A DNA stretch of 64,000 nt from Anaeromicropila populeti (GCF_900112775.1 NZ_FOYZ01000003.1:251494-315493); one strand, 5' to 3'. Shown: positions 16,552 to 23,980, counted from the stretch's first letter. A program made the numbers and translations. Notes: generated by a model not told the origin, from the letters alone.

Positions 16552-18081
16552 TTAACTTTCCATCAGCTTGTTTACTTCTTGAATGTCTCTGATAATACTT
16601 TCTTTTCTGTCTTGAAACAGCAAGCCTTTATTGTATTCATAATACTTATCACAGCCAAACTCACTAATATATCTCATACTGTGATAATTTCCAGCTAATT
16701 CCGTAATAAAGATAACCATTTCCTGACTTTCGCCAAATGCTTTTTCCATAAAAAGAAAAGCATGCTTTAAACGATTGGAGGCTTTTTCAATTGATTCGTT
16801 TCTTTCCTTGGTTTCCTCATAAAACCATTCTTTCAGAAGCTGAAAGGATTCTTCATCCGCCATGCTTCCCTTCTGTACCAGCTTATCCTTATATTCCTCT
16901 AACGTCTGAATCATATGAAGAATAGCCTGTACTTGGTCAATTTCTATCTGACCAGCTTCTTTCTGAGCTGTTAAAACAATATTTTTTCGCTGTATGATAG
17001 ACATTAATAACTCTGGCACACCATCCACATTACTATTTTCTTGAACATTTTCTTTTATTTCCTGTAAAACCTCATATAATCCTGTCACATATGCATCCAT
17101 ATGCAATGCCCTTTGAAAATTTTCATTTATGCCTGCCAGCAACAGTCCAATCACGGTATACCTTTCATCAAACTGTGCTTCCTTCACTCGTTTTACCAGT
17201 TCTGATTCAATTTGTCCATTTAAAATACTCTGAATCTGATAATCTTTTTCATATTTAACATACAACTCTAGATAGCTGGAAAAATCCTTTGCAATTTTCT
17301 GATTTTGCAGATACTGGATGACAACCTGTTCATCTACTTTAAGATTTAGTTCTTCATATACTAAGAGTAATTTAGACAGGTCTTCCCACCCCCTGGCTGT
17401 TACAAAACTCATACCATCTATTGTTGTTTCAATTTTATAAAAATGGTCTTTTTTTATTTCTAAATAGGAAAGAACTGCCCCGTGGATTCCCTGCTTATAA
17501 GCATATTCCTTCCAAACATCAAAATTGTCTTCTACCTCAATCTTTTTTAGCCGATCTAGTGTTACAATGTCAAAATCACGAACAGATTTATTATATTCAG
17601 GAGGATTTCCAGCTGCAACAATGATCCAGCCTTCTGGAAGCTTATGATTTCCAAACGTTTTAAATTGCAAAAATTGAAGCATAGTAGGTGCCAATGTCTC
17701 TGAAACACAGTTTATTTCATCCAAAAATAAAATACCTTCTCTTAATCCTGTTTCCTCAATTTTATTATATACCGCAGCAATTATCTCGCTCATTGTATAT
17801 TCTGTTACCGCATATTCTCTGCCACTATACACCTTCTTACTAATAAATGGCAGGCCAACTGCACTCTGACGTGTATGATGTGTGATCGTATAAGCCAGCA
17901 GTCCGATTTTACATTCCATTGCAATCTGCTCCATAATCGCCGTTTTTCCAATACCAGGCGGACCTATCAGTAGAATTGGACGCTGCTTCATAATCGGAAT
18001 TTTATACATTCCATACTCATCTTTACTTAAATATGCCTGAATTGAGTTTTTAATTTCTTCCTTTGCACGCTTTATATTCAT
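16552..18081 (-). CDS. MoxR-family AAA+ ATPase
   Basis: AAA+ chaperone-like ATPase of the MoxR group, which usually works with a VWA-domain partner to mature or remodel a target. Walker A is GPPGIGKTAIM, Walker B ILFLDEINCV, followed by the sensor segment IVAAGNPPEYNKSVRDFD. 509 residues is long for MoxR; the extra C-terminal 200 residues are helical. Its start is 3 nt from the stop of the VWA-like gene, so the two are translationally close. No cofactor- or sulfatase-type target is encoded nearby. Confidence 0.9.
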   Translation of the reverse strand: MNIKRAKEEIKNSIQAYLSKDEYGMYKIPIMKQRPILLIGPPGIGKTAIMEQIAMECKIGLLAYTITHHTRQSAVGLPFISKKVYSGREYAVTEYTMSEIIAAVYNKIEETGLREGILFLDEINCVSETLAPTMLQFLQFKTFGNHKLPEGWIIVAAGNPPEYNKSVRDFDIVTLDRLKKIEVEDNFDVWKEYAYKQGIHGAVLSYLEIKKDHFYKIETTIDGMSFVTARGWEDLSKLLLVYEELNLKVDEQVVIQYLQNQKIAKDFSSYLELYVKYEKDYQIQSILNGQIESELVKRVKEAQFDERYTVIGLLLAGINENFQRALHMDAYVTGLYEVLQEIKENVQENSNVDGVPELLMSIIQRKNIVLTAQKEAGQIEIDQVQAILHMIQTLEEYKDKLVQKGSMADEESFQLLKEWFYEETKERNESIEKASNRLKHAFLFMEKAFGESQEMVIFITELAGNYHSMRYISEFGCDKYYEYNKGLLFQDRKESIIRDIQEVNKLMES

Positions 18082-18084
18082 TTT

Positions 18085-19422
18085 CTATTCCTTTCGTTTT
18101 TGTCTTAAATCATCTGGTTCTATTATAAGTTTCATTGCCCACGGGGGAACCTTTTTGTCTGTATAGTTTTCTTCAATAAATACAAATGCCACCTCATACC
18201 CTGGCGGTTTAGTAGGATAAACTCCCATTCCATCGGTGAAATAAAGTAATCCCTTTAAATGATGCAGCTCTTTCCTTTTGATCAGGTCATCAACATATTG
18301 AAACACAGGGCGGAAATCTGTCCCTCCATATCCTTTAACAGAAAACCCTTTTATACAATCTTCTATTTGTTCCATATCTGTGATAATCATATCTTCCTTT
18401 ATTTCATTATCACACTGAATCACATGTACATTTACCTTATTAAAAAAATTCTCACTATCCAGCAGAATTGTAAAAGTCTCTTCCAAAAATGCCTTTACTG
18501 TCTCTCCCTGACAGGATCCTGATGTATCAATAGCAATTACAAACTCTTCTATCTTGTTTACCTCACTATACTCTAATGGTTCTATTAATGGCATATTCTG
18601 ATAAAGCTCCAATCCGTAATGATAAAATCCATAATCAAAGCTATCCATATCCATTTTGTTTTCTTCCCGCAGCAATGCAAATCTACGTAAAAAACTTCTG
18701 TAATTATACTGCTCCCGGTGCTTAACATTTAAGTAGTCCATTAGTGCTCTTGATTCATTTCCTGCATTTTTAAAATAAGTTTCCAAATTGGTCTTTATAG
18801 TTTCACTTACTTTTTCCCACCTTTGATATTCTTCCTCTGGTGCCTTTCTGCTCTCAGGCTCCTCATTCTGTCCTCCCTTTTTCTTTTTTCTCCACAAGGT
18901 ATGATCGTCTACTAAAAATTCCAATCCTATTTTTACTATATCCTGTTCTGCAAACCTCCCAGATAATAGTACCTTATAGATTCCCTCAGCAGTTAAAATC
19001 TTCTGCTCGTCCTCTAAGCTCGCATAAATTTGCTTTCTGTAATCGGAAATTAATTTTTGTATACATTTATAGTCCATTCCATCCATAATATATTCAACAG
19101 CAATATCACAGCTTATATCCCATAGTTCTTCATTCTTATCTTCATAATTATAAATGTGAAAAAAAATGCAGTGAAGCAGCATATGAAAATAACTCCTGTT
19201 TACCAAGATTCTGTTAAACTCATACCGTTCTGTCAAAAACTTGGGGTTATAATATATCTTCTCCCCGTCTGTTCCCATATAAAAAGTAGATAACAGAAAT
19301 TCATAAGAAAACTGGCTCAGTGCTACATCTAAAAATCTCATAGAAAGGTACAATTCATTTCTGGAAGCCTTTAAAATCTGATTACATATATTTATTAATC
19401 TTTCCTTAATCTCATTTTTCAC
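18085..19422 (-). CDS. VWA-like metallopeptidase-domain protein (DUF2201 type)
   Basis: Partner of the MoxR ATPase. The N-terminal 150 residues resemble the putative metallopeptidase domain of DUF2201 (HMLLHCIFFHIYNYE in place of a canonical HExxH, with later VEYIMD). The C-terminal 180 residues are a VWA-like domain with the MIDAS-type DTSGSCQG and a GYGGTDFRPVF loop. The start is GTG at 19422, with AGGAG 8 nt upstream. The HExxH glutamate is replaced (HMLLH), so peptidase activity is doubtful. Known family: DUF2201/VWA with MoxR; role unassigned. Confidence 0.88.
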   Translation of the reverse strand: MKNEIKERLINICNQILKASRNELYLSMRFLDVALSQFSYEFLLSTFYMGTDGEKIYYNPKFLTERYEFNRILVNRSYFHMLLHCIFFHIYNYEDKNEELWDISCDIAVEYIMDGMDYKCIQKLISDYRKQIYASLEDEQKILTAEGIYKVLLSGRFAEQDIVKIGLEFLVDDHTLWRKKKKGGQNEEPESRKAPEEEYQRWEKVSETIKTNLETYFKNAGNESRALMDYLNVKHREQYNYRSFLRRFALLREENKMDMDSFDYGFYHYGLELYQNMPLIEPLEYSEVNKIEEFVIAIDTSGSCQGETVKAFLEETFTILLDSENFFNKVNVHVIQCDNEIKEDMIITDMEQIEDCIKGFSVKGYGGTDFRPVFQYVDDLIKRKELHHLKGLLYFTDGMGVYPTKPPGYEVAFVFIEENYTDKKVPPWAMKLIIEPDDLRQKRKE

Positions 19423-20460: not shown

Positions 20461-20493
20461 AAAAATGGCGTTTTGCATTGGCAAAACACCATT
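20461..20493 (-). terminator. Terminator after the minus-strand AgrD-like peptide
   Basis: On the minus strand ATGGTGTTTTGC pairs with GCAAAACGCCAT (one G-T), followed by TTTTTATT. It begins 12 nt past the peptide stop. Confidence 0.85.
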
Positions 20494-20504
20494 AAGACAT
20501 AATT

Positions 20505-20645
20505 CTATTTTTTAAATCTCTCTGCACCTTTCGGAAGAACTGGCTGATAATACCAACTGATACATGCAGAATTTATTTCTTTTGATACAAAATGCTCTGC
20601 TGTTTTACTAATTATTTTTTCCACAATTTCTTTTCTCTTTTTCAC
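20505..20645 (-). CDS. AgrD-like cyclic thiolactone autoinducer precursor 1
   Basis: 46-residue quorum-sensing peptide precursor, too short for usual gene calls. GTG start at 20645 with a strong AAGGAGG (20654-20660), 8 nt away. The N-terminus is an amphipathic helix (KKRKEIVEKIISKTAEHFVSK), then NSA-C28-ISWY followed by YQPVLPKGAERFKK. By analogy with the clostridial AgrD of C. perfringens (CLWFT then HQPEEP), the ring would be Cys28-Ile-Ser-Trp-Tyr32. The C-terminal LPKGAE-R/K-FKK is shared with the second precursor at 23837. It has its own promoter and terminator. The ring boundary is inference. Confidence 0.88.
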   Translation of the reverse strand: MKKRKEIVEKIISKTAEHFVSKEINSACISWYYQPVLPKGAERFKK

Positions 20646-20978
20646 CTTATGAACCTCCTTTTATTATAATCATTCAGATTATTAATATTCAAAATTTTCA
20701 TTCAAAGTGTCGTAAATACAAAACTTGCAAAATATTAGTGTATAACATATTTTAACATAATGTTACAAGACATTCAATCCTATATTATACTTTTATCATT
20801 ATTCAGTATACTTTTTTAAATAGATTCTGTCAAATAGTATCCTTACAAGTATTGAACGATGCAAAACTGGTACCATTCGTCATTTATCTTCTGACCCTTT
20901 TAATCATTCCACTTATATATTATAGTTATAGTACTTATACAAACAATTATATGAATAAATGAGATTCAGGAGGCTGTT
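20646..20978. other. Divergent intergenic region of AgrD-like 1 and ECF gene
   Basis: 333 nt with no further coding frame I can support. It holds the minus-strand promoter of the AgrD-like peptide (20740-20768) and, towards the plus-strand gene, an AT-rich stretch with TATATTATAG near 20915-20925 that may be its -10. AGGAGG precedes the ECF gene ATG. No riboswitch was recognised. Confidence 0.6.
20740..20768 (-). promoter_or_regulatory. Promoter of AgrD-like peptide 1
   Basis: Minus-strand TTGTAA (20763-20768), 17 nt, TTATAC (20740-20745). The spacer contains ATGTTA twice, 10 bp apart, a spacing of one helical turn that could suit a DNA-binding regulator. Upstream is TTGAATGT, also present at the kinase promoter. 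Confidence 0.6.
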
Positions 20979-21500
20979 ATGAAAAAAGATAGAATTACGA
21001 AATTAACTCTTGCTGCACTTATGGCTGCATTAACCTATGTAGCAACAACTATTGTAAAAATCCCATCCCCTACAAATGGATTTATTCATCCAGGTGATGG
21101 CATGGTATTTTTGTCTGGTATATTGCTTGGTCCTATATATGGAGCATTTGCTGCCGGAATTGGTTCTATGCTTGTTGACTTGCTTTCAGGCTACACCCAG
21201 TACGTTCTTGGAACCTTTGTAATTAAAGCACTGGCAGCTTTTACCTGTGGACTTCTCTACCGTGTCCTTTCCACTAGATTTCACAATGCTATCCTTCCCA
21301 GCATATTGAGTGGTCTTGCTGCCTCTTCCATTATTGTGCTTGGGTATTTTGGATATACCTATTTATTTCTAGGGATGGGAATATCTGCTGCTGCTGACAT
21401 TCCAGGAAATATTATTCAGACCTTGTTTGGTACTTTTACAGTGACAATTATTTTTCCAGCATTGAAAAAAGCCAACATATTTACCTATATAACTCATTAA
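20979..21500 (+). CDS. ECF transporter S component
   Basis: Substrate-binding membrane subunit of an energy-coupling-factor vitamin transporter. 173 residues with five to six hydrophobic helices. ALMAALTYVATTIVKIP at the N-terminus and PTNGFIHPGDGMVFLSGILLGP are typical of the riboflavin/pantothenate-type S family; GSMLVDLLSGYTQYV follows. AGGAGG precedes the ATG. No A, A' or T component lies nearby, so it probably shares an energising module (group II ECF). The vitamin cannot be named. Confidence 0.87.
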   Translation: MKKDRITKLTLAALMAALTYVATTIVKIPSPTNGFIHPGDGMVFLSGILLGPIYGAFAAGIGSMLVDLLSGYTQYVLGTFVIKALAAFTCGLLYRVLSTRFHNAILPSILSGLAASSIIVLGYFGYTYLFLGMGISAAADIPGNIIQTLFGTFTVTIIFPALKKANIFTYITH

Positions 21501-21643
21501 ATACAGCATATTGCACATTCCAGTTTTTTGTTTTTAAAGAAACGCCCGCCTATTTTATGTGCTTTTTTTACATTGTATATAACGATTGTCCATACTAATC
21601 TTAGATTATTGTGTATTTTTAATAAAAAAAATAATTTAATGTG

Positions 21644-21672
21644 TTGAATGTAGTTACAATTTATGATAAAAT
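21644..21672 (+). promoter_or_regulatory. Promoter of the agr-like kinase-regulator operon
   Basis: TTGAAT (21644-21649), 17 nt, TAAAAT (21667-21672), then GGGAG at 21702-21706. The -35 is embedded in TTGAATGTAGTTACAATTTATG, similar to TTGAATGTCTTGTAACATTATG at the promoter of the opposite-strand AgrD-like peptide. Confidence 0.7.
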
Positions 21673-21785
21673 AATTAAAACGGGGAATACAATAGAACAT
21701 AGGGAGATGTGTTATTATAAATGAATTAAATATAATACTTGCACTACTCTCGTATAGTATCGAGCCTTTTATTTGGATTCGGATC

Positions 21786-23039
21786 ATGTCAAAAATTTTT
21801 AAACCGAAATACTCAAACAGAATCTATTATTTTTCCGCTGGCTTCGGTATGTATTTGCTGGGAGTATTAAAGCAAGTTCTTGCATTTAGGATTCAGAATG
21901 ACGTGATAAATCTAGTAATACCGATTGTTATGATTTCCTATACTATATTTTTAACAAATATTTTGTTTAAAAACACTTTATACTCACGGCTTTTATGTCT
22001 GGGAATTTTAAATATTGTGTCCATCATAACAGATATCCTTACAGTCGGAATATTATATGGAATTATACGTATTCCAATTAATGAAATTACCTCGTTCGGA
22101 ACAATTAATGTACTAGCAAGCTTATTTGCCCGATTGTGTTACATAATTATTTGTGAAATGATTTTTACAATAAGCTTTCGAAAGTTAATTTCCCGATTAC
22201 TTTACAATAAAGAAATTGTTCCTTTGATACTAAGCAATATAATTTTAGTTGTACCTAGTGTCGCTGTATTTAATAATAAAAAATTGATTGGAAGTAATGT
22301 TTCACTGTTATTCTTTTTCTTATTGGAACAATTTTTACTTGTAGGGATTACCATTTATGTAATAGTTTTATTTGACAGGCGGCAACAACGAGAGTTTAAG
22401 AATACTCTTCGTTTACAACAGATGGAACTAGAAATGCAAATGAATAAAGATATTATTGAAGTTACAGATAAATTGAGAGAATTACGACATGATATGCGAT
22501 CACATTATGGATTAATAAAATCACTTGTTATTTCAAAAAAATATAATGAATTAGAGTCGTATATTAATGATCTGTACGTGGATATAGAAGTTGCAGAAGA
22601 TATTTTTCTTCTTGATAATAAAAATGTCGCTATTTTATTAAATCAAAAGAAGAAAGCAGCTAAACAGCTAAAAATCAAGTTCTCTTCTACTATTACAGTT
22701 AATGATTTTAAAATGTCTGATGTTGATATTTGTTCGCTGCTCTCCAATTTGCTTAATAATGCAATTGAAGCCAATGAAAATGTTTCTGTGGAACAGCGCT
22801 TTGTTAATTTGGACATTCAGCTAGAGGAGGCTGGTTACTACATTATATGTAATAATTCATTAGCTGATATGCCCGTTTTTAGAAAAGGGAGCTTTATTAC
22901 TACTAAACTTGATTCCTCAAATCATGGTTTAGGTGTAAATATTATTCGAAATATTGTAAAGAAATATCATGGCAACGTTAAATTTGATTTTAATGAAAAT
23001 GAATTTACAGTAGAAATTTTTATTCCAAATGCTTCATAG
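21786..23039 (+). CDS. AgrC-type sensor histidine kinase (GHKL family)
   Basis: Membrane sensor for a cyclic autoinducer peptide. Five to six helices fill residues 1-195. A helical linker leads to RELRHDMRSHYGLIK (phospho-acceptor H235) and a GHKL ATPase with LSNLLNNAIEAN (N box) and GLGVNIIRNIVKKYHG (G box). The first ATG (21786) is internal: the frame stays open upstream and encodes a missing first helix, INELNIILALLSYSIEPFIW. The Shine-Dalgarno at 21702 points to ATT at 21714. An ATG at 21721 would be in frame if one base were inserted. Followed after 14 nt by the regulator gene. Confidence 0.92.
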   Translation: MSKIFKPKYSNRIYYFSAGFGMYLLGVLKQVLAFRIQNDVINLVIPIVMISYTIFLTNILFKNTLYSRLLCLGILNIVSIITDILTVGILYGIIRIPINEITSFGTINVLASLFARLCYIIICEMIFTISFRKLISRLLYNKEIVPLILSNIILVVPSVAVFNNKKLIGSNVSLLFFFLLEQFLLVGITIYVIVLFDRRQQREFKNTLRLQQMELEMQMNKDIIEVTDKLRELRHDMRSHYGLIKSLVISKKYNELESYINDLYVDIEVAEDIFLLDNKNVAILLNQKKKAAKQLKIKFSSTITVNDFKMSDVDICSLLSNLLNNAIEANENVSVEQRFVNLDIQLEEAGYYIICNNSLADMPVFRKGSFITTKLDSSNHGLGVNIIRNIVKKYHGNVKFDFNENEFTVEIFIPNAS

Positions 23040-23053
23040 GAGGTTTCGGATAA

Positions 23054-23776
23054 ATGGAACTTAATATTATTATTTGTGATGATGACCAAGTAAGCTTAAG
23101 TATTAATCGAACTTACATTGAGGAATTCAGCAAGAAATTTAAGGTACGCCCCAATATTCAGTGTTTTAGTACCATTAATGCATCATTTAACAGTATTGTA
23201 AAAAAAGAAAAGATTGATATTGCCCTTTTAGATATTGATTTAAAAGATCATAGTGGTATAGAAGTTGCAAAATTAATTCAGAAAAATAGTCCATGGGCTG
23301 TTATTATTTTTATAACCAGTCATTCTGAGTACGCATTGGACGCCTTTGAATTATTTGCATTTGGATATCTTCAGAAACCGATTGAGCAATCTCGACTTGA
23401 AAAATTATATGCAAAAGCAATTGTTCAGGTACAAAGTATTAAAAATAAAAAGATAAGTGCTTGTATTTATTTTACGGTTAATAAGAATAATATTACGTTA
23501 AAACAATCTAGTATTATTTATATTGAAAAAATACAACAGAAAACAAGAATTGTTACTTTTAAAGAAACATACGAAATTTACGAAACGTTATCTGCTGTTG
23601 AAGAACGGTTAGAATATATTTTTGTACGAATAAGCCAAAGTATTATTGTAAATATGGATGAAATTCTATCTATGGACAAAAATACTATTTATATGAAAAG
23701 CGGACAAGAATTTCGCATCGGAAGAACATTCTTAAAGAATGTGAAAGATATTTATTCCAAGTTTCCTAAACACTAG
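23054..23776 (+). CDS. AgrA-like LytTR response regulator
   Basis: Cytosolic transcription regulator paired with the AgrC-type kinase. The receiver domain (1-120) starts IIICDDDQVS (acidic pocket), has phospho-acceptor D60 in ALLDIDLKDHSG, and a T/K pair in FITSHSEYAL and GYLQKPI. The C-terminal half (about 140-240) is a LytTR DNA-binding domain with YIEKIQQKTRIV and RISQSIIVNMDEI. AGGAGG lies upstream. 240 residues, the usual AgrA/VirR length. The likely targets are the promoters of the two AgrD-like peptides. Confidence 0.94.
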   Translation: MELNIIICDDDQVSLSINRTYIEEFSKKFKVRPNIQCFSTINASFNSIVKKEKIDIALLDIDLKDHSGIEVAKLIQKNSPWAVIIFITSHSEYALDAFELFAFGYLQKPIEQSRLEKLYAKAIVQVQSIKNKKISACIYFTVNKNNITLKQSSIIYIEKIQQKTRIVTFKETYEIYETLSAVEERLEYIFVRISQSIIVNMDEILSMDKNTIYMKSGQEFRIGRTFLKNVKDIYSKFPKH

Positions 23777-23836
23777 ATATACATACTAATGACAATAGCA
23801 TAATTGACACATTCATGTTGAAAGGCGGTGTTTTTT

Positions 23837-23980
23837 ATGAAAGAAACAAAAGATACTGTGAAAGCTGCAATTGTAAGCTTATCAGAACAAGTGGTGAAAA
23901 ATAATGTTAACTGTGCATGTTGGTGGTTCTTACACCAACCGAAGTTGCCAAAAGGCGCAGAAAAATTTAAAAAGCATTAA
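23837..23980 (+). CDS. AgrD-like cyclic thiolactone autoinducer precursor 2
   Basis: 47-residue precursor downstream of the regulator on the same strand. ATG at 23837 follows AAAGGCGG by about 7 nt. The N-terminal amphipathic helix (TKDTVKAAIVSLSEQVVKN) is followed by NVNCA-C28-WWFL and HQPKLPKGAEKFKKH. The CWWFL-HQP arrangement closely parallels CLWFT-HQP of C. perfringens AgrD, so the ring is probably Cys28 to Leu32; the extra Cys26 is a second possible nucleophile. AgrB, the protease that would cut and cyclise it, is not in the window. Confidence 0.9.
   Translation: MKETKDTVKAAIVSLSEQVVKNNVNCACWWFLHQPKLPKGAEKFKKH

Follow-up and report, generated by a model that had tools for sequence, protein, structure and literature searches.

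The stretch of DNA analysed here, 64,000 nucleotides of the Anaeromicropila populeti genome (GCF_900112775.1 NZ_FOYZ01000003.1:251494-315493; hereafter the window), contains between positions 20505 and 23980 an agr-like quorum-sensing locus with a sensor kinase gene, a response regulator gene and two genes for AgrD-like signal precursors. A first-pass annotation had described two such precursors together with an AgrC-type kinase and a LytTR regulator, and all four genes were recovered with the expected domains. Both precursor open reading frames (ORFs) are present and pass a peptide-family search with TIGR04223, the curated model of AgrD (cyclic (thio)lactone autoinducer precursor; cut-off 19 bits). 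The first (20505..20645, minus strand) starts with GTG and encodes 46 amino acids with the candidate ring CISWY, Cys28 to Tyr32, and the tail QPVLPKGAERFKK (31.6 bits, E 1.3e-7), and the second (23837..23980, plus strand) starts with ATG and encodes 47 amino acids with the candidate ring CWWFL, Cys28 to Leu32, and the tail QPKLPKGAEKFKKH (36.4 bits, E 4e-9); given these E-values, they are not chance ORFs. The precursors have in common Cys28, the ring length and the frame NxAC...QPxLPKGAE(R/K)FKK, and both carry a P35xxP38 tail in which, like in Staphylococcus aureus AgrD, a proline stands at Cys+10. The proposal that the two rings share a central Trp did not hold, as the residue is not in register (position 4 in CISWY, positions 2 and 3 in CWWFL).

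The agrC gene (21714..23039, plus strand; PF14501, alignment A1 and A1 profile) encodes a multi-spanning sensor with about six to seven hydrophobic spans and a GHKL histidine kinase domain (HATPase_c_5, PF14501, 81 bits), and the LRHDMRSH motif with the phospho-acceptor His and the N-box are retained in its paralogues (alignment A1). The ORF from the first ATG covers 21786-23039, yet the true start probably lies further upstream, near an ATT at 21714, as upstream of this ATG the first membrane helix (..LALLSYSIEPFIWIRIM..) runs on in frame and matches the paralogues. The frame is open up to this ATT, a Shine-Dalgarno (SD) sequence is present at 21700-21706, and the match of the A1 profile begins at 21720. 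A non-ATG start is hence likely, the alternative being a receptor shortened at its N-terminus. The regulator gene (23054..23776, plus strand; alignment A2) encodes a receiver (PF00072, 63 bits) and a LytTR domain (PF04397, 59 bits); on these matches the protein is AgrA-like and not the staphylococcal AgrA equivalog, as it reaches only 28.9 bits against NCBIfam NF046049 with its cut-off of 400.

The feature is real and larger than the two-precursor locus described at first. In a genome search with a profile of the window AgrC, ten paralogues including that of the window scored >540 bits and everything else <160, and at each of these ten loci agrC is followed by agrA and then by one agrD (order C-A-D). 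The CWWFL gene takes the same position behind agrA as agrD does in the nine other triads, and since each of the ten triads has exactly one AgrD behind its own agrC-agrA, the CWWFL precursor is cognate by position and the CISWY precursor is an extra one. In total, 13 AgrD-type sequences exceed the TIGR04223 cut-off in this 4.22-Mb draft genome (96.9% complete, 44 contigs), and 12 of them are intact ORFs; the remaining one, the C29 remnant, has no start codon and no AgrC-AgrA beside it. Their rings are CISWY, CWWFL, CFFFF, CLFWF, CFWVL, CWFLW, CIWWL, CFFWL, CWFFL, CLGTL, CFWLI, CWFWF and, in the C29 remnant, CLWWF. Despite this variety, they are set in a common frame, with NxNxAC before the ring and (Y/H/N)QPxLPxG..KFKK behind it, and among the ten cognate AgrDs the pairwise identity averages 73% in the QPxLPxG segment vs 31% at ring positions 2-5. 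AgrC-AgrA (r 0.80) and AgrA-AgrD (r 0.64) divergence were both significantly correlated in Mantel tests, which fits with cassettes that are inherited as units.

None of the ten triads encodes an AgrB, nor does the solo AgrD have one beside it, and none was found adjacent to either precursor of the window, in line with the first-pass annotation. A search of the whole genome with PF04647 (AgrB) gave exactly two matches, AgrB1 on contig C18 and AgrB2 on contig C31, and none in the window. AgrB1 (138 bits, cut-off 23) is intact and solitary: no AgrD adjoins it, it lies next to a dehydrogenase-like gene and MYG1_exonuc, and LPG_synthase_C is a few genes off. It retains the equivalents of the active-site residues (PLRSFAGGVHAKTQTRC), which in S. 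aureus AgrB are R70, G75, H77 and C84 (PMC10196373). AgrB2 adjoins its own AgrD (CAGFTRFLFYEPEIPKCLKTS) and an AgrC of a different type.

For comparison, the survey took in 397 genomes from the family and 391 from the class (partly overlapping, about 790). With 13 AgrDs, A. populeti exceeds the next highest count of 7, and an AgrB within 4.5 kb was found for 0/13 of its AgrDs vs 49/56 of those in 16 other related multi-AgrD genomes. The best match to AgrB1 among the family genomes (42% identity) comes from G301, which belongs to another genus and is 99% complete. There, the AgrB1 homologue is also solitary and located between MYG1_exonuc and LPG_synthase_C, and AgrB-less AgrDs with AgrC/AgrA-type neighbours occur at four places (one of them under the AgrD model cut-off), besides one ordinary AgrB-AgrD locus. 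The layout of a stand-alone AgrB and AgrB-less cassettes hence also exists in a second genus. In the AgrC tree, the AgrB-less C-A-D type receptors of both genomes form one clade (100/100), and the A-C-D operons (C26b in A. populeti, C18 in G301) cluster with G024, whose operon has the order A-C-D-B. The tree and this operon order suggest that A-C-D-B was the ancestral arrangement, from which B may have split off as a gene of its own, and that the C-A-D triads are an old family that would depend on it. Among named genomes, no close relative carrying these triads was found, as their AgrC homologues show at most 37% full-length identity; the best of them, from the Herbinix metagenome-assembled genome L060, has neither AgrD nor AgrB on its 7-kb contig.

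From our point of view, AgrB1 is probably the shared maturase for the window triad and the other AgrB-less triads, which would form private signal-receptor circuits, a reading to which we assign a probability of about 0.72; the genome would then probably mature all triad signals with one stand-alone AgrB. Each triad would make its own AgrD, and AgrB1 would recognise the precursors by their common frame NxNxAC-ring-(Y/H)QPxLPxG..KFKK, cut behind the fifth ring residue and cyclise the product to a thiolactone. The mature peptide would activate the AgrC of its own triad, which in turn would phosphorylate the LytTR regulator of that triad, and the CISWY AgrD would use the same maturase. The notion of the first-pass annotation that an AgrB elsewhere matures both precursors is consequently the best-supported of its interpretations, as a stand-alone AgrB of the right subtype is present on C18, whereas two signals for one receptor are not the main point, given one AgrD per triad in ten triads. 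Elsewhere in the family, the AgrBs nearest to AgrB1 adjoin AgrDs such as NVNASCMLFAHQPELPKGAEKLRKF and NVNSACHFVAYQPKLPKGAEKLRKF, which are close to the orphan AgrDs, and likeness to AgrB1 correlates with AgrD likeness to the orphan set (Spearman rho 0.73, p 4e-7, 36 AgrB-AgrD pairs, the p-value being indicative only). The anatomical and comparative evidence is strong; the enzymology and the channel specificity, namely that AgrB1 would process all orphan AgrDs, that the rings have five members and that each triad signals privately, are what we infer from it.

Some points weigh against this reading. Ring and sensor divergence are not significantly correlated (Mantel r 0.22, p 0.10; partial r 0.19, p 0.18), and private receptor specificity is therefore not demonstrated. 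Furthermore, the 36 AgrB-AgrD pairs are phylogenetically related and were partly sampled by their likeness to AgrB1. Lastly, the genome being a draft, a further AgrB could be absent from the assembly, though not beside the triads.

The alternative that survives best is that the window AgrC is activated by the CWWFL peptide and inhibited, or also activated, by the CISWY peptide, which would then be a built-in antagonist or decoy; we consider this rather unlikely. In staphylococci, it is well established that non-cognate autoinducing peptides inhibit AgrC, and the CISWY gene, at a distance of 1.1 kb from agrC, looks like a complete transcription unit of its own. It is preceded by a putative SD region with AAGGAGG (aaggaggttcataag ahead of the GTG; 20646..20661, minus strand) and by two promoter-like sites on the same strand, TTGAAT-17-TAAAAT with a TG before the -10 (20749..20777; consensus scan and shared motif) and TTGACA-17-TATACT with 11/12 matches (20805..20833; consensus scan), and directly behind its stop codon follows an intrinsic-terminator-like hairpin with a 13-bp stem and a T-rich tail (20464..20493, minus strand). 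The first of these promoter-like sites resembles that of agrC (TTGAAT-17-TAAAAT, TG before the -10; 21644..21672, plus strand; consensus scan and shared motif), spacer positions included. When upstream regions were searched for an AgrA operator by Gibbs motif sampling, no clear LytTR repeat was established, and the only motifs obtained were extended -10 promoters of the form TTGAAT-17-TGnTAAAAT, the spacer of which is partly common to several triads. However, a transporter gene separates the CISWY agrD from agrC, none of the nine other triads has a second AgrD, and the receptor-less C29 remnant indicates that a solo gene may be the leftover of a lost triad. The CISWY AgrD is an extra solo signal gene, which may be an antagonist, an additional agonist or the remainder of a lost triad. 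The transporter gene in question (20979-21500) encodes an energy-coupling factor (ECF) S component of the riboflavin-type family, for which no Rfam riboswitch was found; Rfam gave no matches at all in the 15-30 kb part of the window. At lower coordinates of the window, an AAA (MoxR-like) ATPase gene adjoins a VWA/DUF2201 metallopeptidase-like gene (16552-19422, minus strand).

One could also imagine that the orphan AgrDs are unprocessed leftovers of a local loss of AgrB, and that their receptors answer to peptides made by other cells, if to any. The complete lack of AgrB in the triads would fit, as would the decayed C29 locus, from which the start codon of AgrD as well as AgrC and AgrA are gone. 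We nevertheless regard this as improbable, since twelve ORFs are intact with the ring Cys in all of them and a conserved recognition frame, the ten kinases and regulators are intact as well, and so is a solitary AgrB whose position is conserved in two genera. Similarly, AgrB2, which is intact and shares its catalytic motif with AgrB1, could mature the orphan AgrDs in place of AgrB1 or together with it. The AgrD of AgrB2 is of another type, however, and likeness to AgrB2 hardly follows AgrD likeness to the orphan set (rho 0.32, p 0.06, same 36 pairs, vs 0.73 for AgrB1), which makes such a role decidedly improbable. That adjacent AgrBs were lost at contig breaks or by annotation, as might be imagined for a draft genome with two triads on short contigs (C14 and C17), can practically be dismissed, because every triad is flanked by several kb of ordinary genes without AgrB and the same layout recurs in the 99% complete genome of G301.

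The C26a (L024:4722-8509) and C17 (L030) loci have flanks that are 85-97% identical, and the C-A-D cassette between them is 51-74% identical, as if it had been swapped, or had diverged, between flanks that stayed the same. The C38b cassette sits beside DUF2800, in a region listed as viral in IMG/VR, and the C14 triad has an FtsK-type gene and a resolvase-like ORF in its vicinity; some triads may therefore be located on mobile elements, for which both observations are suggestive only. The sole IMG/VR match to AgrC, L182 (IMGVR_UViG_2599185221_000009), contains the C38 triad with the ring CLGTL and apparently represents the genome's own C38 cassette, and no close AgrC copies were found on plasmids or named phages. 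As a tentative extension, which we hold to be somewhat doubtful, the single host AgrB could act as a hub maturase for exchangeable agrC-agrA-agrD cassettes, some of them on prophages or elements of the conjugative type; mobile elements would then supply the specificity part and borrow the host enzyme, with at least ten private channels per cell.

Several other genes recur in the surroundings of the cassettes. Pairs of phage-type DUF739 helix-turn-helix genes, whose DNA is 85-92% identical, are found beside triads (L024:7878-8519, L026:9235-9997, L030:10417-11160). DNA encoding an RHS-repeat protein and a small lipoprotein-like protein is shared by the surroundings of the C38a AgrD and of the C29 remnant (L026:2958-6265, L028:7205-8818, L019:11829-12435), and the same lipoprotein-like gene is also present ~2 kb from AgrB1. 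The C26a triad is followed at about 3 kb by a C39-peptidase ATP-binding cassette exporter of the bacteriocin type (L024:10280-12463), which the circuit may control.

The usual description of Agr is that of a single operon with a single signal. If one AgrB indeed serves at least 11 precursors, maturation would be uncoupled from signal identity, a cell could add channels by taking up three-gene cassettes, and one deletion would be enough to shut down every channel. Such a system would provide a handle on the substrate rules of AgrB, on peptide-receptor diversification without a co-evolving peptidase, and on the number of private channels that one bacterium can run.

Hub-type maturation, in which one enzyme acts on many scattered precursors, is known from ProcM for the prochlorosins and from PptAB/Eep for streptococcal pheromones, with enzyme families and chemistries other than those of Agr. 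A solitary AgrB serving many AgrDs was not found in the literature, which is weak evidence since subscription journals were mostly outside the coverage. With agrBDCA of S. aureus, the system has in common the plan of AgrD (amphipathic leader, Cys28, a candidate ring of five residues, a tail with Pro at Cys+10), the AgrC/AgrA pair and the catalytic residues of AgrB (PMC10196373); there, however, a single AgrD and AgrB are encoded in one operon, whereas here the order is C-A-D with no local B, in ten triads and with a solitary AgrB. Split or partial loci, some of them on phages, are also represented by agr1, agr2 and agr3 of Clostridioides difficile and the agr locus of phage phiCDHM1, and the gene content of agr2 (A, C, D, B) equals that of the relative G024, but each of these loci keeps AgrB next to AgrD (PMC3901668). 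The closest parallel in this comparison is Clostridium autoethanogenum, which has an agrD2-agrC2 locus without agrB and for which the authors infer that one AgrB, AgrB1, acts on both AgrDs (PMC8748961). In that organism, AgrB adjoins agrD1, serves two AgrDs, and neither operon includes agrA (PMC8748961), whereas in A. populeti a solitary AgrB faces at least 11 AgrDs, ten of them with full AgrC-AgrA pairs.

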